The notes under the pieces are model-generated. The model was given only the letters and a program-made list of their open reading frames with translations, searched no databases and was not told where the DNA came from. Shown one piece after another: positions 1,527-32,383 of a DNA stretch of 44,202 nucleotides. This DNA is from Actinomycetota bacterium. Its GTDB lineage: Bacteria > Actinomycetota > Geothermincolia > Geothermincolales > RBG-13-55-18. The position numbers and the translations under genes are program-made. The DNA is taken from positions 1 through 44,202 of the forward strand of contig JAQVFR010000030.1 of NCBI GenBank assembly GCA_028697145.1. The letters are read 5' to 3'. How positions within the stretch are numbered: position 1 is the stretch's first letter; each line of letters opens with the position of its first letter.

Positions 1527-3146
1527 ATGATGCGTTGGATCAAGATGTTCCCCGTCCTTTTCCTGCTCACCGTGGTGCTGGCGGCCGCCGTCCCCCCCGC
1601 CGCGGCCCAGGGGATCGCAGGGGTGCCGGCCATAGAGAACATCCTTCCAGGTGCGAACTGGAGGGGCCTGCCCGTGGCCATCCAGGGGAAGGACTTCGGG
1701 AGGCATCAGGTGCCCTGCTTCAGCACGGTGACCTTCAACGGGGTTGACGCCGGACAGGCGATCATCTGGACGGACAACTATATCGTGGTCGTGGTTCCGG
1801 AGGGGGCGACCTCGGGCCCGGTGGTGGTGAGCAATATATGCGGCTCGAGCGAGCCCTACGATTTCACCGTTTACGAGCAGCCGGCCGCCGTACCCTGCTA
1901 TTTCGCGGAGGGCACCACGCGCGCCGGTTTCGAGGAATGGCTTACCGTATACAACCCGCATGACGTCGAACATACCGCGACCGTGACTTACCTGCTGGCC
2001 GAGGGGGCTAACCGCATCCGTTATTACAACGTGCCCGCGCACTCCCGCATGAACGTCTACGTGAACTCGGAGATCGGCTCGGACCGGGACGTCTCGCTGG
2101 TCGTGACCTCCACCGAGAGGCTTTACGCCGAGCGGCCCATGTACTTCCGCTACAAGAACGAGTGGACGGGCGGTCACTGCGCCGAGCCCGCCCTGGATAC
2201 CAGCAGGACCTGGCACTTCGCGGAGGGCACCACGCGCGCCGGTTTCGAGGAATGGCTGTGCCTGGCCAATCCCGGCGCGGCGGATGCCACGGTCCACGCG
2301 ACCTACTACTTCGCGGACGGCGGGTCGCTTACCATTCCCTACACCGTGCCGGCATGGAGGAGGTATACCGTTGACGTAAACGCCACGGTGGGCCCGGAAA
2401 GGGACGTGGCCATAAGCATCAATTCAGACCAGCCCATCGTCGCCGAGCGGCCCATGTTCTTCGCTTATCGCGGCGCATGGGACGACGGCCATATCACCGC
2501 GGGAGCCACGTCTCCGCATGAGACCTGGTTCTTCGCCGAGGGCACCACCCGCGCCGGTTTCGAGGAATGGCTGTGCCTGGCCAATCCGGGTGAGGAAGCA
2601 GCCGAGGTGGAGGTGACCTATGGCCTCTCCACCGGAGGGATTACGAAGCAGAAGTTCTCCGTTCCGGCCATGAGGAGACACACCATACTGGTGAACTCCG
2701 TCGTGGGCCCGGAAAGGGACGTGGCCATAAGCATCGATTCCGACCGGCCCATCGTCGCCGAGCGCTCCATGTATTTCGACTACCGCTCCAAGTGGAACGG
2801 CGGACATCTCTCCCTGGGGGCGCCCGCCGCGTCGACCTCATGGTTTTTCGCGGAAGGCACCACCCGCGCCGGTTTCGAGGAATGGCTGTGCCTCTTCAAC
2901 CCCACCGGCGAGGAGGCGCTGGTCGAGGTGAAGTACGTTTTCCAGGATGCGAGCACGCAGACCCAGGATGTCCTGCTGGCGCCGGGCCGGCGCTTCACCG
3001 TGTACGTGAACGAGCTGGTGGGACCCGACCGGGACGTGGCGGTGTGGGTGGAGTCGGAGCGGGAGATCGTGGCGGAGCGTTCCGTGTACTTTTCGTATCA
3101 CGGCGCCTGGGACGGGGGCCACAACGCCATGGGGACCGCCCCCTGA
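1527..3146 (+). CDS. secreted protein with IPT/TIG-like domain and four 105-residue repeats
   Basis: About 539 residues. A signal peptide (residues 1-27, ending AAAQG) leads into an IPT/TIG-like beta domain (about 30-120) and then four tandem repeats beginning near residues 126, 231, 336 and 441. Each repeat opens with FAEGTTRAGFEEWL and carries later motifs such as VGPERDVAI and IVAERxMYF before a GGH near its end. This looks like an extracellular beta-rich adhesin or surface protein; the ligand is unknown. There is no sortase motif or C-terminal membrane anchor. TGGAGG at 1518-1523 serves either ATG 1527 or ATG 1530, the second having better spacing. Domain assignment is from pattern recognition, function is inference. 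Confidence 0.85.
   Translation: MMRWIKMFPVLFLLTVVLAAAVPPAAAQGIAGVPAIENILPGANWRGLPVAIQGKDFGRHQVPCFSTVTFNGVDAGQAIIWTDNYIVVVVPEGATSGPVVVSNICGSSEPYDFTVYEQPAAVPCYFAEGTTRAGFEEWLTVYNPHDVEHTATVTYLLAEGANRIRYYNVPAHSRMNVYVNSEIGSDRDVSLVVTSTERLYAERPMYFRYKNEWTGGHCAEPALDTSRTWHFAEGTTRAGFEEWLCLANPGAADATVHATYYFADGGSLTIPYTVPAWRRYTVDVNATVGPERDVAISINSDQPIVAERPMFFAYRGAWDDGHITAGATSPHETWFFAEGTTRAGFEEWLCLANPGEEAAEVEVTYGLSTGGITKQKFSVPAMRRHTILVNSVVGPERDVAISIDSDRPIVAERSMYFDYRSKWNGGHLSLGAPAASTSWFFAEGTTRAGFEEWLCLFNPTGEEALVEVKYVFQDASTQTQDVLLAPGRRFTVYVNELVGPDRDVAVWVESEREIVAERSVYFSYHGAWDGGHNAMGTAP
1902..3146 (+). repeat. four in-frame tandem repeats, period 315 bp
   Basis: The conserved segment encoding FAEGTTRAGFEEWL starts at 1902, 2217, 2532 and 2847, exactly 315 bases apart each time. 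DNA identity is very high over this segment in all four copies and lower elsewhere, so the motif is either under strong selection or homogenised by gene conversion. Confidence 0.95.
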
Positions 3147-4028: not shown

Positions 4029-4151
4029 GTCACTTCTGATTTGATAATAGGAAGGACAGGCGGGAGCGGGTCAGGGTACCCGGAAACGGCCGCGGCCCAG
4101 GGCCGCCGCCTCGAGACGGGAGCCGGCCCGAGGCTTAAGGAGGATGACAGC

Positions 4152-7076
4152 GTGCCTGAAGATAAATTTCCATGGGACTCCCTGTTCCGGGGAGGGGGTG
4201 GGGGCGGAGGCGAGCTGCCCTCCATATTCCGCCGCAAGGAGGGTAAGGCTTCCGGGCCGAGCTTCAAGGAGAGATGGGACAAGATCAAGCCCCGCACCAA
4301 GTGGATAGTGGGCATAGTGATCGTCGCGCTCGTCATCATATTCCTCAGCGCCTCCTGGCTGTCCACTTTTTATACCGACCTCCTCTGGTACCAGGAGGTC
4401 GGATACACCTCTGTCTTCTGGAAGCGCATCGTCACCCAGATATGGCTTTTCTTCGCCTTCGGCCTGCTTTTCTTCGTCATCCTCTATGGCAACATCTGGC
4501 TGGCGCGCCGTTTCACCCCCCGTTACGAGAAGCCGCCCGGGGACCTCAACCCCATAGAGGAGTCCCTCGCGGGCTTCCGGGAGAAGGCGGGAAAGTGGCT
4601 GGGGCGCGGCCTGCTCGCCGCGTCGGTGCTCATCTCGTTCATCGTAGGGTGGACTTCCGCGGGGCAGTGGGAGAACGTCCTCAAGTTTTTCAACCATACC
4701 TCGTTCGGAAAGGTTGACCCCATCTTCGGCAAGGACCTGGGGTACTACGTCTTCGAGTTCCCGTTCCTGCGCTACTTCAGCGGGTGGCTGTTCGCCTCGC
4801 TTGTCGCGATCCTCCTGCTCACCGCGGCCGTCCATTTCCTCTACGGCGCCATCAATTTCGGCGCCGGCAAGGGCCAGCGCTTCGCCACCCACGTAAAGGT
4901 GCACCTCTCCGTGCTGGCGGGCGTCATCCTGCTCGTCCAGGCATGGCGCTTCCGCCTGGACATGCTGGCCCTCCTGTACTCCCCACGTGGCACGGTAATC
5001 GGGGCCAGCTACACGGACGTGCACGCCCAGATCCCCGCCTACTGGATATTGATAGTCGCCTGTTTCATATGCGCGGGGCTCTTCATCCTCAACATCCGCT
5101 ACAAGGGATGGAAGCTTCCCCTGGCGGGAGTGGTGGGCATCGTGGTCGTTGCCCTGCTGGCCGGGGCCCTCTATCCCGTCATCATCCAGAACTACGTGGT
5201 GAATCCCAAGGAACTCTCGCGGGAGAGGGAATACATCGGCTATAACGTCGAGTTCACCCAGGATGCCTACCGCATCCAGGAAGAGGGCGAGAGCGCCGTG
5301 CTCGAGAAGAGGGAATTCCCCGCCAACTTCGACCTCACCTACGACGATATCCTGGCCAACACGGCCACCATAGACAACGTCCGGCTTTGGGACCCGCACC
5401 AGATGGCGCAGGTCTTCTACCAGCGCCAGGTGCTGCGCCAGCTCTACAACTTCAACGACGTGGACGTGGACCGCTACACCGTGTTCGACGGCACCTATAC
5501 CCAGATGATGGTGGCCGGCCGCGAGCTGGTCATAGACCAGTTGCGGGAGGACGCAAAGACCTGGCAGAACACGCACCTCTCCTTCACCCACGGCTACGGC
5601 ATGGTCATGGCCCCCAGCAACGAGTTCACGGTCGCGGGCGACCCTAACCTGCTCATCGGGGACATCCCGCCCGTATCCGAGGCCGGACTGGGCTTGGAGA
5701 TAAAGAGGCCCGAGCTGTACTACGGTGAGCTGACGCACGATTACGTGGTGGTGCGCAGCGGGGCGGAGGAGATCGACTACCCCATGGAGAACACCAACAA
5801 GCTCGTGGATCCCTACTACGAGGGCGAGGGGGGCATACCCGTCTCCAATTTCCTCAAGCGCCTTGCCTTCTCCATCCGCAACACGGACATCACCTTCCTC
5901 TTCAGCGGCTACATCAACAGCGAATCGCGGCTCATGTTCCGCCGCAACATAAAGGACAGGGCGCTGGAGGTCGCTCCCTTCCTCAGGCTGGACGGAGACC
6001 CCTACCTCGTCATCACCGACGACGGCCGCCAGAAGTGGATCCTGGACGCCTATACCACTACGGACCTCTATCCGTACTCCGAGTTCCTCGAGATCGAAGG
6101 GGAGCGCATAAACTACATACGCAACTCCGTGAAGGTGGTCATCGACGCCTACGACGGCACCCTCACCTATTACCTCGTCGACCCGGAAGACCCCATAGCC
6201 GCCACCTACGGCAAGATCTTCCCCGACCTCTTCACTCCCATGGAGGAGATGTCCGCGGACCTCAAGAAGCACCTGCGCTACCCCGAGGACCTCTTCGTGG
6301 TGCAGATGGAGCTGTACAAGACCTACCACATGAACGACGTGGAGGCCTTCTACCAGAAGGAGGACGTGTGGGAGGTCTCCACCGAGACCTACGGGGTCAA
6401 CCAGTCACAGCCGGTGACGCCCTATTACGTCATCCTCAAGCTGCCCGGCGAGGAGAAGGAGGAGATGGTGCTCATGCTCCCCTTCAACCCGCGCGGCAAG
6501 AGCAACATGGTGGACTGGGTGGCCGCGCGCTGCGACGTCCCGAACTACGGCACGCTGATCAACTTCACCTTCCCCCCCGGGAAGCTGGTGAAGGGGACGC
6601 AGCAGTTCGAGGCGCTGGTGGACCAGAACCCCGAGATATCGCAGCAGATAACCCTGTGGAGCCAGGCGGGTTCCACGGTCATCCGCGGCAACACCCTGGT
6701 CATACCCATAGAGGACTCGCTGCTCTACGTGGAGCCACTCTACCTCGAGGCCACAAATCCCGCCATACCCCAGCTCAGGCAGGTGATCGTCGGTTACGGC
6801 GACACGGTCCTGATGAGGCCAAACCTCACGGAGGCGCTGCAGGCCATCTTCGGCGCCGAGCCGCAGCCCGAGCCCGAGCCGCAGCCCGAGCCCGAGCCGC
6901 AGCCCGAGCCCGAACCCGAGCCGCAGGCGGACCTCGCGCAGTTGATCCAGCAGGCGAACCAGGTATACGACGAAGCCCTGGAGGCCCAGCGCAACGGCGA
7001 CTGGACGACTTACGGGAGCAAGATAAACCAGCTTAGCCAGATACTGGACCAGATGGCGGCGCTCGCCGGGCAGTGA
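4152..7076 (+). CDS. UPF0182 (COG1615) large membrane protein
   Basis: About 974 residues from GTG 4152, which has an excellent site (AAGGAGG at 4137-4143) 8 bases upstream. The first 350 residues after a glycine-rich head carry roughly seven hydrophobic membrane segments. The remaining 550-600 residues form a large, probably extracytoplasmic domain rich in Y, D and T. The tail holds a Glu-Pro-Gln low-complexity stretch followed by a short helical segment. Length and architecture match UPF0182, which is widespread in Actinomycetota and Cyanobacteria and has no established function. A reading frame continues upstream to TTG 4041, but without a ribosome site. Confidence 0.93.
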   Translation: MPEDKFPWDSLFRGGGGGGGELPSIFRRKEGKASGPSFKERWDKIKPRTKWIVGIVIVALVIIFLSASWLSTFYTDLLWYQEVGYTSVFWKRIVTQIWLFFAFGLLFFVILYGNIWLARRFTPRYEKPPGDLNPIEESLAGFREKAGKWLGRGLLAASVLISFIVGWTSAGQWENVLKFFNHTSFGKVDPIFGKDLGYYVFEFPFLRYFSGWLFASLVAILLLTAAVHFLYGAINFGAGKGQRFATHVKVHLSVLAGVILLVQAWRFRLDMLALLYSPRGTVIGASYTDVHAQIPAYWILIVACFICAGLFILNIRYKGWKLPLAGVVGIVVVALLAGALYPVIIQNYVVNPKELSREREYIGYNVEFTQDAYRIQEEGESAVLEKREFPANFDLTYDDILANTATIDNVRLWDPHQMAQVFYQRQVLRQLYNFNDVDVDRYTVFDGTYTQMMVAGRELVIDQLREDAKTWQNTHLSFTHGYGMVMAPSNEFTVAGDPNLLIGDIPPVSEAGLGLEIKRPELYYGELTHDYVVVRSGAEEIDYPMENTNKLVDPYYEGEGGIPVSNFLKRLAFSIRNTDITFLFSGYINSESRLMFRRNIKDRALEVAPFLRLDGDPYLVITDDGRQKWILDAYTTTDLYPYSEFLEIEGERINYIRNSVKVVIDAYDGTLTYYLVDPEDPIAATYGKIFPDLFTPMEEMSADLKKHLRYPEDLFVVQMELYKTYHMNDVEAFYQKEDVWEVSTETYGVNQSQPVTPYYVILKLPGEEKEEMVLMLPFNPRGKSNMVDWVAARCDVPNYGTLINFTFPPGKLVKGTQQFEALVDQNPEISQQITLWSQAGSTVIRGNTLVIPIEDSLLYVEPLYLEATNPAIPQLRQVIVGYGDTVLMRPNLTEALQAIFGAEPQPEPEPQPEPEPQPEPEPEPQADLAQLIQQANQVYDEALEAQRNGDWTTYGSKINQLSQILDQMAALAGQ
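6858..6926 (+). repeat. 18-bp tandem repeat encoding EPQPEP units
   Basis: Three near-perfect copies of GAGCCGCAGCCCGAGCCC plus a partial one, inside the UPF0182 gene. It is a length-variable linker between the extracytoplasmic domain and the C-terminal helix. Confidence 0.85.
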
Positions 7077-7173
7077 GCGAGCCCGGGGCCGGGCAGTGAA
7101 GCCCCTCCGTCGGGGTTAGCACGCCCGGACGCGGAGAGGCCGTCACGGTCCGCGCAAGGGGTGGTGAGGCGCG

Positions 7174-8274
7174 ATGGCCTTGAAACGCTGCAGGAAATGC
7201 GGCCTTCCGCTGCAGTTGTCCAGGAGGTATGTCTGGCCCGGCAACGGCGTGATCCTCTCGCGCAGGGATCCCGGTATGCGCATGATCATGTTCGAGGCGG
7301 ATTACTTCGCCCACATGTGGTCCGCACTGGAGGAACTGATAGGTGTAAACATGGCGGATGCCATGATCCGTGGGCAGCATGCGGCTTCGCAGGACTACAT
7401 GGACAGTAACGTGTTACTTGGATGGCGAAAAACCGCCGTGCGCCACCTGCCGCTGCGGACCATATTCGATCGTACCGTCAGCGAGCTGGCCCTCTTTGGT
7501 TTCGCCGGCGTCGAGCTAATGGAGTACAGGCCCGGCAAGATGCTCGTCATGAGGGTCAAGCACCCCTTCGATATCATCTCCATCGCCTGGGGCGCCAAGG
7601 GGCTGGCCGAGTTCAAGGAGGGGATGAGTTCGGAGCTGGCCTGGAAAAGGGAGGGGGACGACTACATCCTCACCATGATCTTCGAATCCGCCGGGCGCCG
7701 TGGCGACGGCGAAACGCTGGAGACGATGAGGTATATGAGGGACGCGAAGAGGGAGCTGTCCTTGGAGGGAGAACTACTGCCGCCGCAGGGAGACAGGGGA
7801 GAGCCGTGCCCGTCATGTGGACTTCCCGCGGCATTGACGGAACTGGAGTGGAACGAGGGCGAGGGGACGATCAGGCGCATCGACAACGGCAGGAGGTATA
7901 TCTTCTCCACCGGTCATGTATTCCTGGGCATAGTGAGGGACCTGGAGGAGAGGACCGGCCGCGACCTGGGGCCCCTGATCATGAAGTTGACCAAGGACTA
8001 CCATCTTCGCTTTCTACAGGGCATACCCATCCGCTCCAGGAACGGAGCTTACCGCGCCGCCGCCAGATACCTCTTCGCGGGAGGGTTCGGAAACGTCCAG
8101 GGCTGCGATTGCGGGGAGGGATACCTCGAGATGACCATCGGCAACCCCTTTTACGTCCCCAGGCTCGTGGGCCGTATCGCGGGATTGTTCGAGTATATAG
8201 AGGACGAGCAGGCTGACATCGGTTACCGCAGCCCCCAGCCGCAGTTGCTGGAGCTGGAGATCAGGGCCACCTGA
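7174..8274 (+). CDS. two-half cysteine-motif protein, unknown function (paralogue of 22135-23208)
   Basis: A 366-residue soluble protein, family not recognised. It is built of two similar halves, each opening with CxxCxxP (CRKCGLP at residue 6, CPSCGLP near 210), followed after about 15-25 residues by a short beta segment and a helix with a Glu/Gly-rich turn (LEELIGVNMADAMI; LEERTGRDLGPLIM). The second half resembles the paralogue closely (CPSCGLPAALTELEW versus CPSCGGPAALSGFEW). A CDCG motif occurs near residue 310. The region after each helix faintly recalls V4R-type small-molecule-binding domains, which is speculation. The cysteine pairs suggest zinc ribbons. The start ATG has a purine-rich GGTGGTGAGG upstream. 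Confidence 0.8.
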   Translation: MALKRCRKCGLPLQLSRRYVWPGNGVILSRRDPGMRMIMFEADYFAHMWSALEELIGVNMADAMIRGQHAASQDYMDSNVLLGWRKTAVRHLPLRTIFDRTVSELALFGFAGVELMEYRPGKMLVMRVKHPFDIISIAWGAKGLAEFKEGMSSELAWKREGDDYILTMIFESAGRRGDGETLETMRYMRDAKRELSLEGELLPPQGDRGEPCPSCGLPAALTELEWNEGEGTIRRIDNGRRYIFSTGHVFLGIVRDLEERTGRDLGPLIMKLTKDYHLRFLQGIPIRSRNGAYRAAARYLFAGGFGNVQGCDCGEGYLEMTIGNPFYVPRLVGRIAGLFEYIEDEQADIGYRSPQPQLLELEIRAT

Positions 8275-8282
8275 GCCGGGGG

Positions 8283-8927
8283 TCATTCGCCGCCCTTCAT
8301 TTCCTCGACCGGCGTGAAGGCCTTGAGTGCGGCGCGCACCACCAGCCGCAGCGTCGCGTCGCCCTCGGGGGCGCAGGTGGTAAGGGTGAGAATCGGTTCC
8401 TCGGTCTGCAGGGTGACGTTCTCGCTGGGGTCGATGTAGCGAAGTTCGCTCACCTGGTACTCGTAAACGCCCCGCGGGTTCTGGATGAATATGGCATCTC
8501 CCGGCTTTAGCTCGTCGAGGCGGTTGAAGGGCCTGGTGCAGGTGGTACGGTGTCCGGAGATGACGCAGTTGCCCGGCCAGCCCGGAAACCCGGTATGGGT
8601 GAGATGCACCGGTCCCATGGAAAGGGTGGTATACAGCTCCCCGTCGATGTCGCTCCCCTCCCGCACCTCCTCGTCTATCTCGGCGGCGGGGATGCGGATG
8701 AACGCCGGGGTCTCGAAGGAGAGCGGGGGACCCAACAGATCGTCGTGGGTGAGCGGCCGGGATTCATCCGCCTCCGTCGTGTTCCTGCCGGCCTCCGCCG
8801 AGCTGCGGCGCATCCGGTCGTAGAGGTACGGGCCAAGGATGGCCAGTGCGACCACAACAGCGGCTGAAAGCGTTACCGCGGTAACCGTGCCCTTACGTCC
8901 CAAGATCCTTCCCCTCCGGGATCCCAT
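8283..8927 (-). CDS. sortase (class E/D-like transpeptidase)
   Basis: A 214-residue membrane-anchored sortase, expected to attach or link surface proteins by cleaving an LPxTG-like signal. From the ATG at 8927 one transmembrane segment spans about residues 14-33, with a linker and then the beta-barrel domain. Catalytic residues are visible: His126 (VISGHRTT), Cys185 (TLTTC) and Arg194 (ATLRLVVRA). The start is fixed by a good promoter ending about 16 bases upstream of it; an upstream in-frame ATG at 9077 would lie before that promoter. No LPxTG-like substrate is encoded in this window, so it is probably a housekeeping enzyme. It faces the 7174 gene convergently. Confidence 0.92.
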   Translation of the reverse strand: MGSRRGRILGRKGTVTAVTLSAAVVVALAILGPYLYDRMRRSSAEAGRNTTEADESRPLTHDDLLGPPLSFETPAFIRIPAAEIDEEVREGSDIDGELYTTLSMGPVHLTHTGFPGWPGNCVISGHRTTCTRPFNRLDELKPGDAIFIQNPRGVYEYQVSELRYIDPSENVTLQTEEPILTLTTCAPEGDATLRLVVRAALKAFTPVEEMKGGE

Positions 8928-8949
8928 GAATGCCTTCGCTTCGTTAAAA

Positions 8950-8979
8950 ATTGTATCGGGTTGCCCTTCGCGTTGACAA
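8950..8979 (-). promoter_or_regulatory. sigma-70-like promoter of the sortase gene
   Basis: On the minus strand TTGTCA (8979-8974), an 18-bp spacer and TACAAT (8955-8950). The predicted start of transcription lies about 16 bases before the sortase ATG at 8927. Confidence 0.65.
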
Positions 8980-9102
8980 CGTTGCGGGAGGTAGCCTCTC
9001 GCCTGGCGCGGACGGCGCTTCCCGGCGGGCTCACGCAACCTTCCGCGTGTGGGGCCGGGGCGTGGATGGAAACCCAACAGCGGGCACGGGTATCGCCGTC
9101 GT

Positions 9103-12357: not shown

Positions 12358-12745
12358 CTTGCCCCCTCCTGTCCGATAGATTCTCGCCCGCTCAGGATGT
12401 CAGGACCTCTGGCCGTCCCGCATCCTGACGACGCGAGACTGGTTATCCGTGCAGCCTTGGCGTAGCATTCTCCATATATGCACCTCCCTGTATGCCTTCC
12501 GATGCCCGACCTGTCCCTCTGGTATTTCCAGAATGCAGCTCCTGACGGCTCCCGATATCATATTTCTACCCCTACCGCACAGATGGAAACCTCGATTAAC
12601 ACTTTATGTTGCACGAACTGATCGGCGCAGCGGTCCCGTCATCTGGCGTCTGATATTCCAGCCTCAGACGTGCGTCGGGATCGAGCCTGGGATAATATTG
12701 AGGCATACCTTGACGCGAGACCCGACCCCGAAGGAGGGAGAACGC
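12358..12745. other. 388-bp intergenic region between divergent units
   Basis: No gene or repeat recognised. It must hold the promoters of the minus-strand ligase and the plus-strand small gene/crotonase unit. A GATAAT at 12691-12696 could be a -10 box for the plus-strand unit, but no good -35 is seen. The plus-strand reading frame open from 12449 is arginine/cysteine-rich and looks non-coding. Confidence 0.4.
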
Positions 12746-13001
12746 GTGCCCCGCCCGTTTCCGGCACGTGGCCGGCGTCCTCGCCGGGGCGGGGATAGAA
12801 CCGGAAGAGGTCAAGGTGGACAAGGCGAGGAAAAAGGAACTCGACGAGAAGATCCATGCGCTGGTGGGCCCGCCCACCTTGAAAAAGGTGAAGCAGATGC
12901 TCGCAGACGACAAGAAAAGGGCGAAGCTGGCCAATGCGCTCAAAGGCCTGAAGGAGGGCGCGGGCCGTTCTCGCATGCCGAAACAAGATGGCCACGGGTG
13001 A
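12746..13001 (+). pseudogene. small lysine-rich protein gene with apparent +1 frameshift
   Basis: A strong site AAGGAGGGAG (12731-12740) sits 5 bases before a GTG at 12746, but that frame becomes arginine-rich nonsense. The next frame, entered by removing one C from the CCCC run at 12749-12752, reads VPARFRHVAGVLAGAG and continues to the stop at 13001 as a well-formed lysine/glutamate-rich helical protein of about 84 residues (DKARKKELDEKIHALVGP, then LADDKKRAKLANALKG). Without a shift the only start in that frame is GTG 12768, 28 bases from the site. It may be a real mutation, a sequencing error or programmed shifting. It directly precedes the crotonase gene (27 bp). Function unknown. Confidence 0.6.
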
Positions 13002-13027
13002 TGCGTGGCCGGCAGGGAGGATCAGGA

Positions 13028-13813
13028 ATGGAACCCGAGGTATTCAAGGTGGAGATCTCAGGCGGCGTCGCGCGCTGCAGCATGAACCGTCCCCGGGACA
13101 TGAACGCACTCAGCGTGGAGCTTGGATTCCCCATGGTGGAGGGCCTGACGCGGGTGCTCGACGACGACTTGGTAAGGGTGGTCGTGCTGCGAGGCGAGGG
13201 TGGGCATTTCTGCTCAGGCGCCGACCTGACCCTGTTGGGGGATAACCTCGACCCGACTTTCCTCAACCAGAGCATGCGCAGACTAGGGGAGGTGATCCTC
13301 AGGCTGTACGAGGGGCCCAAGCCGGTGATCACGGAGGTGGACGGCTTCGCGGTGGGAGGCGGGCTGGGGCTGGCCCTCGCGTCGGACATCACCTACGCCA
13401 CGGAGAGGGCGCAGTTCAGCATGGGCTTCATCAAGATCGCCGCCACCCCCGACATGGGCAGCTCGTTTTTCCTCGCCGAGCGCGTGGGATTGGTCAAGGC
13501 CAAGGAGATGGCCTTCACCGGCGACATCGTGGGGGCGGAGGAAGCCCTGCGCATCGGCCTCGTCAACGGGGTGGTCGCTCACGAGGAGATATCGGGTGAG
13601 GTCATGAAGCTCGCGTCCTATATCGCCACCAAATCACCGCGGACCCTGGCCGATACCAAGCGCATGATGAACCGCTCGCACCTGCTCGACCTGCGCTCCG
13701 TACTGGAGCTCGAGGCAAGCGTCCAGCCCGTCATGCTCCTCTCCGAGGAGCACCGTGCCGCCATAAGAAAGATCTTCGCCCGCTGGGAACAGGGCCTCGG
13801 CGCCAGCGAATGA
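13028..13813 (+). CDS. enoyl-CoA hydratase/isomerase (crotonase) family protein, atypical active site
   Basis: A 261-residue crotonase-fold protein. The oxyanion-hole segments are present: HFCSGADL (60-67) and FAVGGGLGLALASD (107-120). The two glutamates used by enoyl-CoA hydratases are absent: the GGGxEL glutamate is Gly114, and the one in the QPE motif is Phe134. It should still bind an acyl-CoA thioester and stabilise an enolate, but simple hydration is unlikely; isomerase, hydrolase, dehalogenase or non-catalytic roles are possible. The start ATG follows GGAGGATCAGGA. It sits 27 bp after the small frameshifted gene. Confidence 0.9.
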   Translation: MEPEVFKVEISGGVARCSMNRPRDMNALSVELGFPMVEGLTRVLDDDLVRVVVLRGEGGHFCSGADLTLLGDNLDPTFLNQSMRRLGEVILRLYEGPKPVITEVDGFAVGGGLGLALASDITYATERAQFSMGFIKIAATPDMGSSFFLAERVGLVKAKEMAFTGDIVGAEEALRIGLVNGVVAHEEISGEVMKLASYIATKSPRTLADTKRMMNRSHLLDLRSVLELEASVQPVMLLSEEHRAAIRKIFARWEQGLGASE

Positions 13814-13825
13814 CCACATCCGGGG

Positions 13826-13960
13826 TCAGTGGTGTTGGATCAGCGCTATCCGGGCTCCGTTCGGGTCTTCCAGGAATGCAAGGGTCCCAACTGTTATCTC
13901 TATGGGTTCCATGGTGATCTTGGCATCTTTAGACCTGAGTTCCACCCCTGAATACCCCTG
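13826..13960 (-). pseudogene. C-terminal relic of a VOC (glyoxalase/dioxygenase-fold) gene
   Basis: On the minus strand a frame open from 14020 to a TGA at 13826-13828 encodes a tail of about 45 residues matching the end of a VOC domain: [12 protein letters not shown], then [19 protein letters not shown]. The pattern of strand, FLEDPNGxRIxLIQ and stop is characteristic of glyoxalase/bleomycin-resistance proteins, whose domain is about 120 residues. Upstream sequence loses resemblance and meets a stop at 14021-14023, so the N-terminal two-thirds is gone. It is a decayed remnant downstream of the K+ channel gene. Confidence 0.65.
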
Positions 13961-14043
13961 TCGTTGACTGCAAACCCTGGACCTGAGATCTCTTATATGC
14001 ACATCCTTATAAACCCGATGCTACCCGGATGCTGGCTTCCCTC

Positions 14044-15108: not shown

Positions 15109-15191
15109 GGCCGCCTCCCGCATGCATGCATGTCGCCCGTGGATATATGCTATCAGATAGCAGTCAGAAACGGGGACCACAGGAGGTTGAC

Positions 15192-15866
15192 ATGGCCCAC
15201 TACGACCACCGCGAAGAGGAGTCCTGGAAAGACTTCGAGTTCAATTTTCCCTTCCGCAAGGGTCTCGAGAGGCTGAGGGAGGAGGTGCTGGCGAAAACGG
15301 ATTTCGACCCCGTCGTGCTCTGGGTCTGGGGCACAATGCAGGCCATGGCGGTCATCCGCATCCTGGAGGATTGCGAGGAGGAGTTCGGCGAGGAAGGCCA
15401 GCGGGTGGTGAAGGAGGCGCTACGCAGGGTCGGTCACGACATCGGCAGGCAGATGATGGAAGGCCTGGAAAGGCCCGGGACCCTCAGTGACGCCGAGATG
15501 GCCAGCTATTTCGCCACCACCATCAACCGCATCGCCTATGCTTCGCTGGAGGACCCGTGCATCGATTCCGGGGACAAGGTGAGCTTTCATATCCTGTGGT
15601 GCCCGCACCAGGACCATTACTCCGCCTTCGATTGTCGCGTGCAACGCTACTTCGTGCAGGGGATGCTGGAGGCGGCGCGGGAGAAGGGGATGCTCGAGGG
15701 CTGGCAGGTGCGCTTCACCCAGACCATTCCCGCGGGCGCCGACACCTGCCGCTTCGAGCTGTGGCGCGCCCCCGACGGGGAGAGGTCGCAGTGGGAGCGC
15801 CACTCCGAGCTGCTGGAGCTGAAGGCGCTGGAGATAGCCGCGAAAAGAAAAGCCGCTCGCGGCTGA
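15192..15866 (+). CDS. ATC-hydrolase-like protein (L-2-amino-thiazoline-4-carboxylate hydrolase family)
   Basis: 224 residues, cytoplasmic. The helical first two-thirds are followed by segments typical of this family: WCPHQDHY, the FDCRVQRYFVQG helix and the strand pair VRFTQTIPAGADTCRFELW, in which the Gly-Ala-Asp-x-Cys turn is the family hallmark. The characterised member opens a thiazoline ring on the way to cysteine, but most relatives in anaerobes are of unknown substrate. The start ATG has AGGAGG 5 bases upstream; earlier in-frame starts lack a site. The C-terminus is a charged helix ending KRKAARG. Confidence 0.65.
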   Translation: MAHYDHREEESWKDFEFNFPFRKGLERLREEVLAKTDFDPVVLWVWGTMQAMAVIRILEDCEEEFGEEGQRVVKEALRRVGHDIGRQMMEGLERPGTLSDAEMASYFATTINRIAYASLEDPCIDSGDKVSFHILWCPHQDHYSAFDCRVQRYFVQGMLEAAREKGMLEGWQVRFTQTIPAGADTCRFELWRAPDGERSQWERHSELLELKALEIAAKRKAARG

Positions 15867-22134: not shown

Positions 22135-23208
22135 TCAACCCCTGCGGGTTATCTCGAGTGAAAGGGTGCCGTCGTCGCGCATCTCCCACTCGACCTCGCT
22201 CTCCGAGCGCGCCGCGGCCTCGAAGTATCCCTGCATGAGGCCGACCACCATGAGATGCAGGACGGCGTTCCTGACGGTGACCCGGAGCGACTTCTCGCCC
22301 AGCTCCATCTCCCGCAGCTCGCCCAGTCCCCGCAGGGCGAGTTGCCTGCGGAAGGCCTCCTCGTCCTGGATCTCCCGGATGCTGTATAAACCGGTATTCG
22401 CGAAACGGCGCTGCGCCTCCACGATCACCCTGGGGATGGTCTCCCCCAGCTCCTTGGCCAGTTCGCTGAAGATGGCGTCCTGGTATGCCGGCCCCAGCAT
22501 CACCAGCCGCCTTCCCGTATCGCGGCTGGTGATCACGCCGCGGTCGTCGTGCCACTCGAAGCCCGAGAGGGCCGCCGGCCCACCGCACGAGGGGCATCTC
22601 TCCAGCTCGATGCCGCTCTCCTGGAAGCCGTATCCCTTCACCTCCAGCCTTCCCATGAACTCAGGGGGGTGCTCGGCCGGACGGCATGTCACCACCATGA
22701 CGTCCTCGCCCTCCATCTCGTAGGTGACGTCGTTGTCCCGGTCCGTCACCGCCTCGGTGGAGCCGGTGAGGTCACCGCACCACAGGGGCACGGAATAGGG
22801 CTCGCGGATACGCTCGGTGACGAAGTCGTCATCGTCCCCCTCGAAGCGGACGCCGACCAGCGTGGTGTTGCCGTAACCCATGATGGAGCTGGTAACGTTG
22901 AGCGCCTCCACCATCGGCTCCACGCTTATCTCGCGCGTGAGGATCATCTCCTTCACTTCCGGTGGGATGATACGGCCGATGTATTCGCGGGTGGCCCTGC
23001 GCTTGGTCTCGATGATTATGCGCTCGATGGGCACGCCGATGATCTCCTCGATGCCCTTGTACAGGGGATCGAGGTTCTCGCTCTCGATGATCACCATGCG
23101 GTGGTCGCGGTCGTTGCTCTGGACGATGATCCCGCCCGCGAGCCAGGCGTGGTTGGTGACCGCCTGCACGGGAACGTTGCACTCCGAGCACCGCTCTATC
23201 TCAGCCAT
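22135..23208 (-). CDS. two-half cysteine-motif protein, unknown function (paralogue of 7174-8274)
   Basis: 357 residues, soluble, family not recognised. Two halves each begin with a cysteine knuckle (CSECNVP near residue 7; CPSCGGP near 207), then a short strand region and a helix (IEEIIGVPIERIII; LAKELGETIPRVIV). The second half aligns clearly with the paralogue at 7174 (GFEWHDDRGVITSRDTGRR versus ELEWNEGEGTIRRIDNGRR). The last 60 residues, LRVTVRNAVLHLMVVGLMQG onward, recall the V4R ligand-binding fold, a tentative reading. The start ATG has GGGGGG closely upstream and a possible promoter about 110 bases further up. Confidence 0.8.
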   Translation of the reverse strand: MAEIERCSECNVPVQAVTNHAWLAGGIIVQSNDRDHRMVIIESENLDPLYKGIEEIIGVPIERIIIETKRRATREYIGRIIPPEVKEMILTREISVEPMVEALNVTSSIMGYGNTTLVGVRFEGDDDDFVTERIREPYSVPLWCGDLTGSTEAVTDRDNDVTYEMEGEDVMVVTCRPAEHPPEFMGRLEVKGYGFQESGIELERCPSCGGPAALSGFEWHDDRGVITSRDTGRRLVMLGPAYQDAIFSELAKELGETIPRVIVEAQRRFANTGLYSIREIQDEEAFRRQLALRGLGELREMELGEKSLRVTVRNAVLHLMVVGLMQGYFEAAARSESEVEWEMRDDGTLSLEITRRG

Positions 23209-23358: not shown

Positions 23359-25350
23359 CTATGCGCCTCGCAACCTCAGGTAGACCTTCGGCAGCTCCAC
23401 CGGCAAGTCCTCCACGCTCCGCAGCACCAGGTAGCCGTGGGGAGGGCACATGCGGCGCAGGTAATCGTGGCCGGCGGCGTCCACGGTGAGGTTGAAGGGG
23501 ATGATGTGTCCGGCCTCCGCCTCGCGCAGGGCCTGTGCGGTGTCGCGCAGCCCGTACTCGCGGTCGGTGCGGTCCTCGCCGTAGTCGTGATCCTGGGGGT
23601 AACCGTCGGAGAGCAGCAGCATCATCTTGAGAGACGAGGCCTCCGCGTCGAGCAGGTGATGGGCGTGGCGTACCGCCGTTCCCATGCGGGTGCTCTTCAT
23701 GGGCTTGAGCCCGCCGAGCCGCTGCCACACCGTCTCCCCCAGGGGTTCGTCGAATGACTTTATGCGCAGGAACTCCACCCGTTTCCTGCCGTAACCCGAG
23801 AAGCCGAAGATGCCGTAGCGGTCGCCCAGCTGCTCCAGGGCCCTGGCCATGATGGCCACGCTGGCCACCAGCACCTGCAGCACCGTCTCTCCCGCGTGGC
23901 TGCCCCCGCTTATCTCCGTCGAGGTGGAGGCCGAGAGGTCCAACAGGAAGAGGGCGCTGACCTCCCGCGTGACGCGTCGCTTCTCCATGTACACCTTCTC
24001 CGTGGGGGGCAGGCCGCAGCGCAGCGCCACCTGCCTCTCCACCGCCTCGGAGATGTCTATCTCGTCACCCCATTCCAGCCTCTTCCGCCAGCTGCGCTCC
24101 CGCAGGCGCAGCATGCGGAACTGGCGCGTGACCTCGCGCACCAGCTCGTCACGTTCCTCCAACAGCCGCCTGGCCGCCTGCGCGTTCCCCTCTTCGGCCG
24201 TGAGCCCGCACAGGGTAGACCAGTCGCGCCGGTAGCCTCCGGCGAGGTAGTCCCATTCCGGGTAGAGCAGGCGCTGCTCGCAGGCTTCTGCTCCCCCGTC
24301 CTCGGCCCTCTCCCCGCGCTGCGGCCCGTCCCTGCGCTCCGCGTCTCTCTCGCCCAGCTTCCTGCCCAGGGCGTCCTCGGCGAGGAACTCCCCGGCCCCG
24401 GACGGGAGCGGGAAGGAGTAGAAGTCCAGATTGAGCGCCTCCGCCAGCTGCGGCGGTACCAGCTCCATGCCCTCTTCCTCCCGTTCTCTCCCGAAACGCG
24501 TGGCGCGGTTGCCGCGCAGCCCGGGCGTGGTGCCTTCGAAGAAGTCGTCCGCCCCCTCCAGGAGCACGAGCTCCTCTGGAGCGAGCGAGGTCCTGAGGGC
24601 CTCCTCGAGCAGGGCATAAACGGCAAGGGTGGCCTCGAGGCTGATCCTGAGGGTAGCGCCGGGCGGGGAGACAGCGCATGCCGCGTCCATGACCTCACGG
24701 GGATAGCCGCCTTGTGCCGTCCCGCCCGCGGTGGGAGCAAGGAGGTCGAAGAACACGTTCCAAAGCACCGCACGGTGGTCGACGGGCTCGATATTGGGCC
24801 CCAAGCGGGCGAGGAACCACGCCAGGTCAGACGCCAGCCCCGCGTACCTCCGCGCAGCGGCGCTGGACACGCGCGCCGTCTCCAGGGCGATGAAGATATC
24901 CGCCGCCAGGAAAGGCATGGGAAAGCATCCCAGGAAATGGCGCAGGAAGGCCAGGGGCTCCTTCCGCTTCATCCAGGCCTCAGGGCCCGTCCGGACCGCG
25001 GCCTCGCCGGCGCGGGGGCGATCGAAAGTGCCCGACTCCCATTGACCCGCCTGCAAGCCCGCATAGACGCGGTAGACCCTCCAGTTGTCCGCGCGGGTGT
25101 CGAAGAGGTTCACGTAAGGGGGCAGGAATATCTCCCTGCCGTCGCTGAAGGGAATGGGGCGGCGGGGATTGGCCAGGACCGCCGGCGCGTCTCCCAGCGA
25201 ACCCGCCCGCAGGTACCTCTCGCTGAGCCCCTTCCCGAAGAGGGAGAGGCTCGCCCGCGCCTCTTCAAGGGTGACCGTCCCGCCGTCCTCTTCCTCCTGC
25301 CCGTCCAGGAGGGTGCTGGCATAGATGGCGAGGTTGAGGGAAGACGTCAA
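23359..25350 (-). CDS. NorD/CoxE-type VWA-domain protein
   Basis: 663 residues. A long helical N-terminal part (about 1-450) is followed by a C-terminal von Willebrand A domain with the MIDAS motif DLSASTS, LLSDGYPQDHDYGEDR and TVDAAGHDYL, a pattern typical of NorD/CbbO-like partners of MoxR ATPases. Together with the AAA+ gene 22 bp upstream it should form a chaperone that remodels or inserts metal into a client enzyme. No nitric-oxide reductase, Rubisco or CO dehydrogenase gene is nearby, so the client is unknown. The two genes are surely co-transcribed. Confidence 0.9.
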   Translation of the reverse strand: MTSSLNLAIYASTLLDGQEEEDGGTVTLEEARASLSLFGKGLSERYLRAGSLGDAPAVLANPRRPIPFSDGREIFLPPYVNLFDTRADNWRVYRVYAGLQAGQWESGTFDRPRAGEAAVRTGPEAWMKRKEPLAFLRHFLGCFPMPFLAADIFIALETARVSSAAARRYAGLASDLAWFLARLGPNIEPVDHRAVLWNVFFDLLAPTAGGTAQGGYPREVMDAACAVSPPGATLRISLEATLAVYALLEEALRTSLAPEELVLLEGADDFFEGTTPGLRGNRATRFGREREEEGMELVPPQLAEALNLDFYSFPLPSGAGEFLAEDALGRKLGERDAERRDGPQRGERAEDGGAEACEQRLLYPEWDYLAGGYRRDWSTLCGLTAEEGNAQAARRLLEERDELVREVTRQFRMLRLRERSWRKRLEWGDEIDISEAVERQVALRCGLPPTEKVYMEKRRVTREVSALFLLDLSASTSTEISGGSHAGETVLQVLVASVAIMARALEQLGDRYGIFGFSGYGRKRVEFLRIKSFDEPLGETVWQRLGGLKPMKSTRMGTAVRHAHHLLDAEASSLKMMLLLSDGYPQDHDYGEDRTDREYGLRDTAQALREAEAGHIIPFNLTVDAAGHDYLRRMCPPHGYLVLRSVEDLPVELPKVYLRLRGA

Positions 25351-25372: not shown

Positions 25373-26221
25373 TCAGGGGAAGACCACCGCGACCAGGTCG
25401 CGCATGGCCTGCTGCATCACCGGGTCGTCGGAGACCGCCGAGACCACCGCCGTCTCGCAGGCGCGCCGCGCCGCGACCCCCTGCGCGACGAGGCGTGCGG
25501 CGTAGATGAGAAGCCGCGTGGAGGGCCCTTCCTCCAGCCCCCTCTCGCCCAGGTTTCGCGCTTTCTCCCCCAGCAGGGCCAGCCGCCGGGCGGTCTCCGC
25601 GTCCACGCCCCCCTCGCCCGCGATGATGCGCGCCTCCAGCGCGGGGTCGGGGTAGGAGAAATCTATGGCCGCGAAGCGCTGGCGGGTGCTGATCTTCAGG
25701 TCCTTGAGCATGCTCTGGTAGCCGGGGTTGTATGAGATCACGAGGAGGAAGCGGGGGTGGGCGCGGATGAAGCCGCCCTTCTTTTCCAGGGGGAGGATGC
25801 GCCGGTGGTCGGCCAGGGGATGGATGAGCACCATGGTGTCCTTGCGCGCCTCCACCACCTCGTCCAGGTAGCAGATGGCCCCGGCCTTCACCGCCGCGGT
25901 CAGCGGCCCGTCCACCCATACCGTCTCGTCCCCGCGCAGCAGGTAGCGCCCGACCAGGTCGCCGGCGGTGAGGTCCTCGTGGCAGGCGACGGTGATCAGG
26001 GGCAGATCGAAGCCCCCGTCCCTGCCCAGCCGCCACGACATGTATTCCAGGAAGCGGGTCTTACCGCAGCCGGTGGGCCCCTTGAGGTTCACCGGCAGGC
26101 GGGCGCGGTATGCGGCGCGGAAGGTCTCCACCTCGTCGCCCACGGGAACGTAGAAGGGCTCCTCGCTGAAGACGTGTTCCTCGTAGGATATCTCCCCGCT
26201 CATGCGCGTAAGGCCTTCCAT
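25373..26221 (-). CDS. MoxR/NorQ/CbbQ-type AAA+ ATPase
   Basis: 282 residues. Motifs: [12 protein letters not shown] lead-in typical of the CbbQ/NirQ/NorQ group, Walker A GPTGCGKT, Walker B ICYLDEV, sensor region [11 protein letters not shown] and an Arg-rich finger region. Partner of the VWA protein encoded just downstream. Two starts are possible: ATG 26221, with purines immediately before it, and ATG 26203, with GGAAGG about 10 bases before; the homologous region begins after both. It forms hexameric ring motors in characterised relatives. Confidence 0.93.
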
Positions 26222-31297: not shown

Positions 31298-32383
31298 TTA
31301 TGGTTTTATTACTTCCAGGAACGCCTCCAGCTTGCCCTTCTCCTGCAGGATCTTCATGCCCATCTCTCCGGTGGTACCTGGCGGCTCCGGGTGATCCTCG
31401 ATCCTCTCCAGGCGCAGCGCCTCCTCCGGGCAGCCGCTGACGCAGAGGCCGCAGCCGATACAGCCTTCGCGGTCCACGACGGCTAGCCCTTCGGCAACGG
31501 TCACGGCGCCGACCGGGCACCTCTCGTCGGCGCAGATGCCGCAGCCGGTGCACAGCTCCGCGTCGACCGCGGGCGTGAACCCGGAGGGGGTGAAGACGGG
31601 TGCGTTGCCCCATTCCAGGCTCATGCGCAGCAGGCCGCAGCAGCAGGTGCAGCAGTTGCACACGAAGGTCAGGCGCTCCTGCACGTTATTGATCTGGTGC
31701 ACGAGCCCGGCCTCGTCGAACTCGCGCAGCTTCTCTTTCATCTCCTCCTTGCCGAGATAGCGGCCGAAGCCCCTCTCCACCAGGTAGGTGCAGGTCTCGT
31801 CGAAGAGCATGCAGGCTTCGCGCGGGGCGTCGCAATTGCGCTCCATGTCGCGGCAGGCGCAGGTGCCTATGCCCACCACCGCGGCTCCGTCTATCATCTC
31901 GTAGACCTTCTGGTAGGGGAGGACTCCCGGCTCGCTCTCCACCTCCTCCTGGATGGGGATGATGCGCGAGAACCTGGTGTCGGTGCCGCCGAAGCCCCTT
32001 CCCAGTTTCGGCAGGTAGCTCCTCCACAGCGGGGTGAGCCTGGCGCGCATCTCCTCGCTCATCCCCTTCATGTAGGGGAACTCGAAGATGCCGGGCATGA
32101 CGGGGAGGAGCGCATAGCCGCGCCTGCCCTCCTTTTCGCGCACGAAGACCACGGCCTTGTCCGCGAGGGAATCGAGGCAGCTCCCCGCCGTCTCCGCGTC
32201 CACCCCCGCGCGCCGGGCCACGTCATCCACGCTGAAGGGACGGAACCCCAGGCCCAGGGCCACCCGGGCCTCTTCCTCGCTGAAGAACACCTTGAGGATC
32301 TCTATGATCTCTGGTGCCGCCGTACATCCCGTGGGGTGGCGGTCCAGAAGCTCCCGCAGCCGTTCGTATACCTCGTCCGCCAT
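31298..32383 (-). CDS. ferredoxin-like protein with N-terminal winged-helix region and two 4Fe-4S motifs
   Basis: 361 residues. Residues 1-110 form a helical part with a winged-helix-like segment (VDDVARRAGVDAETAGSCL). The middle holds cysteine clusters GTCACRDMERNC and FVCNCCTCCCGLL. The C-terminus has two 4Fe-4S ferredoxin motifs: CTGCGICADERCP (spacing x2-x2-x4, one residue longer than usual) and CIGCGLCVSGCP (standard). It is probably an electron carrier or redox-sensing protein of anaerobic metabolism; the partner is unknown. Its ATG follows GAGGAGGAGACGCTC. It is 87 bp downstream of a TetR gene in the same direction, likely one unit, with a broken paralogue after it. Confidence 0.85.
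   Translation of the reverse strand: MADEVYERLRELLDRHPTGCTAAPEIIEILKVFFSEEEARVALGLGFRPFSVDDVARRAGVDAETAGSCLDSLADKAVVFVREKEGRRGYALLPVMPGIFEFPYMKGMSEEMRARLTPLWRSYLPKLGRGFGGTDTRFSRIIPIQEEVESEPGVLPYQKVYEMIDGAAVVGIGTCACRDMERNCDAPREACMLFDETCTYLVERGFGRYLGKEEMKEKLREFDEAGLVHQINNVQERLTFVCNCCTCCCGLLRMSLEWGNAPVFTPSGFTPAVDAELCTGCGICADERCPVGAVTVAEGLAVVDREGCIGCGLCVSGCPEEALRLERIEDHPEPPGTTGEMGMKILQEKGKLEAFLEVIKP

Follow-up and report, generated by a model that had tools for sequence, protein, structure and literature searches.

A tandem V4R-like protein family with invariant CxxC knuckles, expanded in one class of Actinomycetota

Two genes in a 44,202-nucleotide stretch of DNA from an Actinomycetota bacterium (the window) encode proteins that resemble nothing named in the usual libraries, and the question raised by this locus is what these proteins are and what they may do for the cell. 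The first, P0001, is a protein of 366 aa on the plus strand (7174..8274), predicted to consist of two V4R-like modules with zinc-knuckle signatures: half 1 (7174..7776) opens with the CxxC knuckle C6 and C9 (7189..7200), and half 2 (7798..8271) with C212 and C215 (7807..7818). The second, P0002, has 357 aa and is built in the same way, with half 1 at 22627..23208 (knuckle C7 and C10, 23179..23190) and half 2 at 22138..22605 (knuckle C205 and C208, 22585..22596). Codon-position GC marks both ORFs as coding. The initial annotation had placed both genes correctly, and had left unstated that the second (22135..23208) lies on the minus strand.

That annotation had also described the two proteins as internally duplicated paralogues with a CxxCxxP knuckle at the head of every half, and each part of this description is borne out. 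BLASTP aligns P0001 and P0002 over their full length (22% identity, E 4e-28). The halves begin with C6RKCGLP and C212PSCGLP in P0001, and with C7SECNVP and C205PSCGGP in P0002. When the alignment of the 26 paralogues of the window's own genome was cut at the second CxxC, the resulting half profiles matched each other with E 5e-28; for 148 distinct members from the wider family the value is E 9e-30, while ten column-shuffled controls gave E 0.1-0.57. Both the internal duplication and the paralogy of P0001 and P0002 are thus far above chance. The E-G turn reported to follow each knuckle is likewise conserved among the 148 members, with G58 at 90%, E253 at 96% and G255 at 96% (P0002 numbering). 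The members used here for conservation and context counts were picked by profile score and not randomly.

The four modules noticed in 44 kb understate the family. The genome from which the window comes (2.98 Mb in 52 contigs) holds 26 family genes (27 matches, two of which fall in a single gene on C21), and a search with a single-half profile returns exactly 52 halves, all inside those 26 genes, with no lone half found; one match at E 0.014 was taken as noise. The chains of this genome are 342-378 aa long and contain two halves and nothing else. The genome probably belongs to the family that holds Candidatus Solincola, Ca. Geothermincolaceae, in the class Ca. Geothermincolia: the family protein at the Ca. 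S. daggyaiensis locus (L060) has a start identical to that of the match (L033) in G012, a genome of the window's own family. Copies are present in 31/31 genomes of the class (own included), with 2-53 in each and about 524 in total, counts that rest on at most 35 scored candidates per genome, six genomes having been recounted free of this limit. These genomes are metagenome-assembled and incomplete. In contrast, the family is absent from 366/366 genomes of the rest of the phylum, so that the expanded, lineage-specific family suggested initially is, within Actinomycetota, confined to one class. The in-depth search covered this one phylum. Restriction beyond it rests on a pattern-based scan of a wider genome contig collection with a closer 11-row alignment, which returned Actinomycetota records alone, including Candidatus Solincola and MAGs; a single-protein scan there gave no match.

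Larger genomes tend to carry more copies (rho 0.63, p 2e-4). Family genes occur in head-to-tail arrays of up to five copies (genome G005, contig 9, 54582-61263, part of it in locus L170), and in shorter tandem runs in G001, G002, G007, G009, G011 and G028. In a tree, 13 of the 26 own copies have sister members from other genomes only, which implies that many duplications predate the genome's own lineage. Every genome of the taxonomic family (15/15) carries the P0001 orthologue once, at 40-68% identity in those other than the window's own. One family gene, L105 (G030 C16), lies in two adjacent pieces, 6130-6804 and 6828-7151, and is probably broken or mis-assembled. Carriage as mobile-element cargo was considered and rejected: plasmids, viral contigs and PHROGs are all devoid of family matches.

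Searches of Pfam, NCBIfam, PHROGs and PDB sequences gave no significant match for the family. Neither of the two results that the initial annotation had named as speaking against its proposal turned up: the halves do align with each other, and no characterised family matches over the whole length. Its claim of a new family is accordingly right as far as names go, since the family is unnamed in these four collections, but the fold is already known and is that of the V4R/MopR/H-NOX/Bet3 superfamily. Membership of Pfam V4R at the curated cut-off was not found for the 26 members, PF02830 being absent from the best 25 of the 33 Pfam families listed for them (E up to 10). A genome-wide PF02830 search identified one gene only, separate from the 26; this sole Pfam-V4R protein of the genome (L102, C49:39941-40114) has about 248 aa and carries the usual C-terminal Cys motif.

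The case for the fold comes from structure models and profile comparison. AlphaFold2 with 26 sequences models P0002 at pLDDT 91.7 and pTM 0.90, each half running from the knuckle through a short helix, a beta hairpin, helices, two strands and a helix to two further strands. Against the PDB, Foldseek matches the full model to H-NOX, DmpR, PoxR, MopR, Bet3/TPC6, the V4R protein MJ1460 and YslB, with H-NOX at the top (E 9e-5) and PoxR/MopR at TMt up to 0.56. Half 2 of P0002, folded alone (pLDDT 89.6), finds MopR 7vqf first (E 4.5e-6); its MopR and PoxR matches range from E 4.5e-6 to 3e-5 with TMq about 0.5-0.55 (0.55 for PoxR 5frz), and H-NOX (3e-5), BcsD, YslB (TMt 0.59) and a chain of the Bet3-Trs33 heterodimer (TMt 0.58) are further matches. 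For the full and half models alike, the matches to V4R, MopR and Bet3 structures have probability 1.00. Their TM-scores of 0.50-0.59 are evidence on fold and not on function. In hhalign comparisons with a profile of 12 V4R proteins of the phylum, half 2 scores 44.7 (E 1.5e-6, probability 90) and half 1, more weakly, 31.5 (E 3.5e-4, probability 37), against peak scores of 18.2 and 21.8 in 40 shuffles per half; gap-rich columns were taken out before shuffling, and with them in, one half 1 shuffle scored 131.7. The V4R lead of the initial annotation is therefore right at the level of the fold.

The family nevertheless stands apart from each of its structural relatives. V4R and Bet3 proteins are described with one pair of glycines in helix 2 and another in helix 5, three residues separating the two glycines of a pair (PMC2253512). 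Like V4R proteins such as MJ1460, the family retains the helix-5 pair as small-x3-small, in 145/148 and 146/148 members, along with the fold and the profile similarity; unlike them, it lacks the helix-2 pair. TRAPP Bet3/Trs33/TPC6 and bacterial YslB resemble the half model at TMt 0.51-0.59, but share only about 10-16% sequence identity with a family that is tandem, bears knuckles of zinc type and has no link to vesicle tethering. Taken together, the models and profiles strongly support the V4R/MopR/Bet3 fold, of which the family forms a separate, tandem branch outside Pfam V4R. What we propose below on its function is drawn by analogy.

The cysteines C7, C10, C205 and C208 are invariant in 148/148 distinct members, although two members share a median of only 27% identity. 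These members have no further conserved Cys and no conserved His; the commonest His column reaches 75/148 (51%) and is located in the linker. In the P0002 model the knuckle sits in a loop and not at a helix start. A single CxxC supplies two ligands, and two symmetry-related knuckles supply four, so that the simplest reading is a single Zn(Cys)4 site. The two CxxC pairs would then be close in space, and one zinc on the pseudo-two-fold axis would clasp both halves. The four invariant cysteines, the lack of lone halves and the loop position of the knuckle all argue for such a clasp, as does the precedent of DmpR, whose sensor domains dimerize via intertwined N-terminal segments (PMC7264223). The putative site differs from the one in that protein, where Cys151, Glu172, Cys177 and Cys185 bind zinc (PMC7264223): the Cys-Glu-Cys-Cys site of MopR and DmpR has no conserved counterpart in the 148 members. 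In having two invariant CxxC knuckles the family is like Zn(Cys)4 zinc-knuckle proteins, the zinc itself being our deduction. An Fe-S or heterodisulfide-reductase reading was rejected, as just two CxxC pairs are conserved per chain; with four conserved cysteines and no conserved His, the haem and heterodisulfide-reductase options of the initial annotation find no support.

From these features we propose that the family proteins are zinc-clasped tandem V4R/MopR-like ligand receptors that lack an output domain and act in trans on a local system, an explanation to which we give about an even chance. Each protein would be a soluble single-chain pseudo-dimer of two ligand-binding domains, in which the two knuckles meet on the pseudo-two-fold axis and bind one zinc. 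Most members are without a predicted membrane segment, to judge from their sequences; 24/148 exceed the usual hydropathy threshold, and in a V4R-like fold the segment concerned is a core helix. MopR, DmpR and other V4R domains have a pocket that is small and mostly hydrophobic, and each half may hold one like it. A hydrophobic or aromatic metabolite bound there would shift the relation of the halves, and the change would be read by a separate partner, since the chain has no output domain of its own. V4R domains in general are believed to take up hydrophobic ligands, with signalling either in cis or in trans (PMC2253512). The nearest parallel is offered by the NtrC-type regulators MopR, PoxR and DmpR, whose XylR_N/V4R domain heads the structural matches of a half, works as a dimer and includes zinc as part of the sensor. 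In the present family, however, the knuckles lie at the N-terminus of each half, the two domains share one chain, and fused AAA+ or HTH/DNA-binding output domains are missing. The pocket residue His100 of DmpR has no conserved counterpart either, which makes the ligand class a guess. Duplication would have raised such receptors to 2-53 copies per genome, with at least some of them fixed as orthologues tied to one local gene system.

The gene neighbourhoods bear on this last step. P0001 lies between an upstream UPF0182 membrane protein (4041..7076, plus strand) and a convergent downstream sortase (8283..9077, minus strand), both kept in 13/13 orthologue loci. P0002 is the last gene of a minus-strand run that starts with a CbbQ/NorQ-type AAA+ ATPase (25373..26221) and continues with a VWA-domain protein (23359..25350); the run is kept in loci L070 and L073, which hold the closest relatives of P0002 (64-71% identity). 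In the L078 group the flanks are kept in 14/14 loci, and a B12-radical SAM gene adjoins 11 of them. With duplicate loci removed, a flank is shared with the matching own locus in 39/87 loci, versus 50/2175 among non-matching control pairs. These counts, together with the single-copy P0001 orthologue in 15/15 genomes, are the grounds for assigning dedicated roles to copies. The initial annotation had held that the neighbours differ and that function cannot be read from them; this holds from one paralogue to another, but within some groups of orthologues the flanking genes are retained, so that the statement is only partly true. Elsewhere the neighbours include acyl-CoA ligases and dehydrogenases, radical SAM proteins, TetR, nitroreductase, ABC and EamA transporters, and others, and a search across the family loci for one constant partner gene or a common theme found none. 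This lack of a shared theme counts against the receptor explanation, as does the lack of a conserved flank in several orthologue-like groups (0/11 loci in the L084 group and 0/6 in the L080 group). Often a family gene closes a series of genes on one strand and the next gene points towards it; gaps to neighbours are roughly 75-300 bp.

Among the rival explanations, the one that survives best is that these proteins are one-component local regulators that bind nucleic acid or RNA polymerase, the knuckle face contacting DNA or the transcription machinery and the V4R halves sensing ligand. V4R domains frequently share a chain with transcription modules (PMC2253512, PMC3729527), copy number scales with genome size as it does for regulators, and the knuckles resemble nucleic-acid-binding ribbons, with weak, non-significant matches to ribosomal L37 (E 0.46-2) and to Pfam zinc-finger families. 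However, Pfam searches reveal no helix-turn-helix or other known DNA-binding domain, the median net charge is -8, and genes at the end of a run with a convergent neighbour are unlike the typical divergent local regulator; we consider this explanation unlikely.

A second rival, which we place just after the first and also consider unlikely, makes the proteins adaptors, scaffolds or maturation chaperones of the Bet3 or YslB type, each copy assisting one neighbouring enzyme or membrane system. The structural matches include Bet3-Trs33, YslB and BcsD, and the kept partners are specific to their groups, namely UPF0182 and sortase for P0001, the AAA-VWA pair for P0002 and the B12-radical SAM gene in 11/14 loci of the L078 group. 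AAA+ ATPases paired with VWA proteins are metalloenzyme activators, as in CbbQ/CbbO and NorQ/NorD, which fits an assisting role. On the other hand, no partner is common to the family, and the gaps given above speak against tight operons in most cases.

That the two CxxC pairs form disulfides instead of a zinc site, making the proteins thiol redox sensors, is in our view quite improbable. Disulfide chemistry is conceivable because V4R cysteines are proposed to act as redox switches in MsvR, a methanogen regulator whose V4R domain, like the present one, has functionally important cysteines, and in which the conserved cysteines affect DNA binding with redox state (PMC3729527). Yet a loop with CxxCG-x-P has the form of a zinc knuckle rather than that of the helix-start CxxC of thioredoxin-type proteins, and the four cysteines never vary, though two independent switches could be lost separately. 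Finally, an H-NOX-like haem or tetrapyrrole gas sensor, suggested by the first place of H-NOX in the Foldseek search with the full-length model and by the likeness of the half, was rejected as barely credible, given that the 148 members share no conserved His that could ligate haem and only 3/148 have the YxSxR haem motif.

Other features of the window are recorded here in their own right. The gene at 1527-3146 (plus strand) encodes 539 aa with an unusual mix of TIG, ASRT (sensory rhodopsin transducer-like) and DUF5719 matches. About 1.7 kb at 12358-14043, between AMP-binding and ion channel genes, contain no ORF, whatever its size, with normal codon-position GC. At 15126-15866 (plus strand), adjoining an opposite-strand ion channel gene, lies a gene for 246 aa whose Pfam match to ATC_hydrolase (PF14196, E 1.5e-5) is weak and falls short of the cut-off. 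The protein encoded at 31298-32383 (minus strand) joins an N-terminal winged-helix-like region (weak DprA_WH, TrmB and MarR matches) to a C-terminal two-cluster ferredoxin domain, and is possibly an Fe-S regulator.

With this family the V4R/MopR/H-NOX/Bet3 superfamily gains a branch that had gone unannotated, and several hundred proteins not recognised by Pfam, NCBIfam or PHROGs can be named after their fold. Its tandem layout and apparent metal clasp are not described in the V4R, DmpR and MsvR literature cited here (PMC2253512, PMC7264223, PMC3729527). In 2008 Ignicoccus hospitalis was singled out for having unusually many V4R proteins for an archaeon, seven in all (PMC2253512); the bacteria considered here reach 53 proteins of two modules each, or roughly 1% of their genes. 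As a more tentative extension of the receptor proposal, to which we give distinctly less credence, tens of zinc-clasped, single-chain tandem V4R receptors per genome, all lacking an output domain, might form a control layer specific to the class, in which a single protein design used over and over reads many metabolites for varied local systems through a common partner. An expansion like this, restricted to a single class of Actinomycetota that is largely uncultured, is the mark of a major lineage-specific function.
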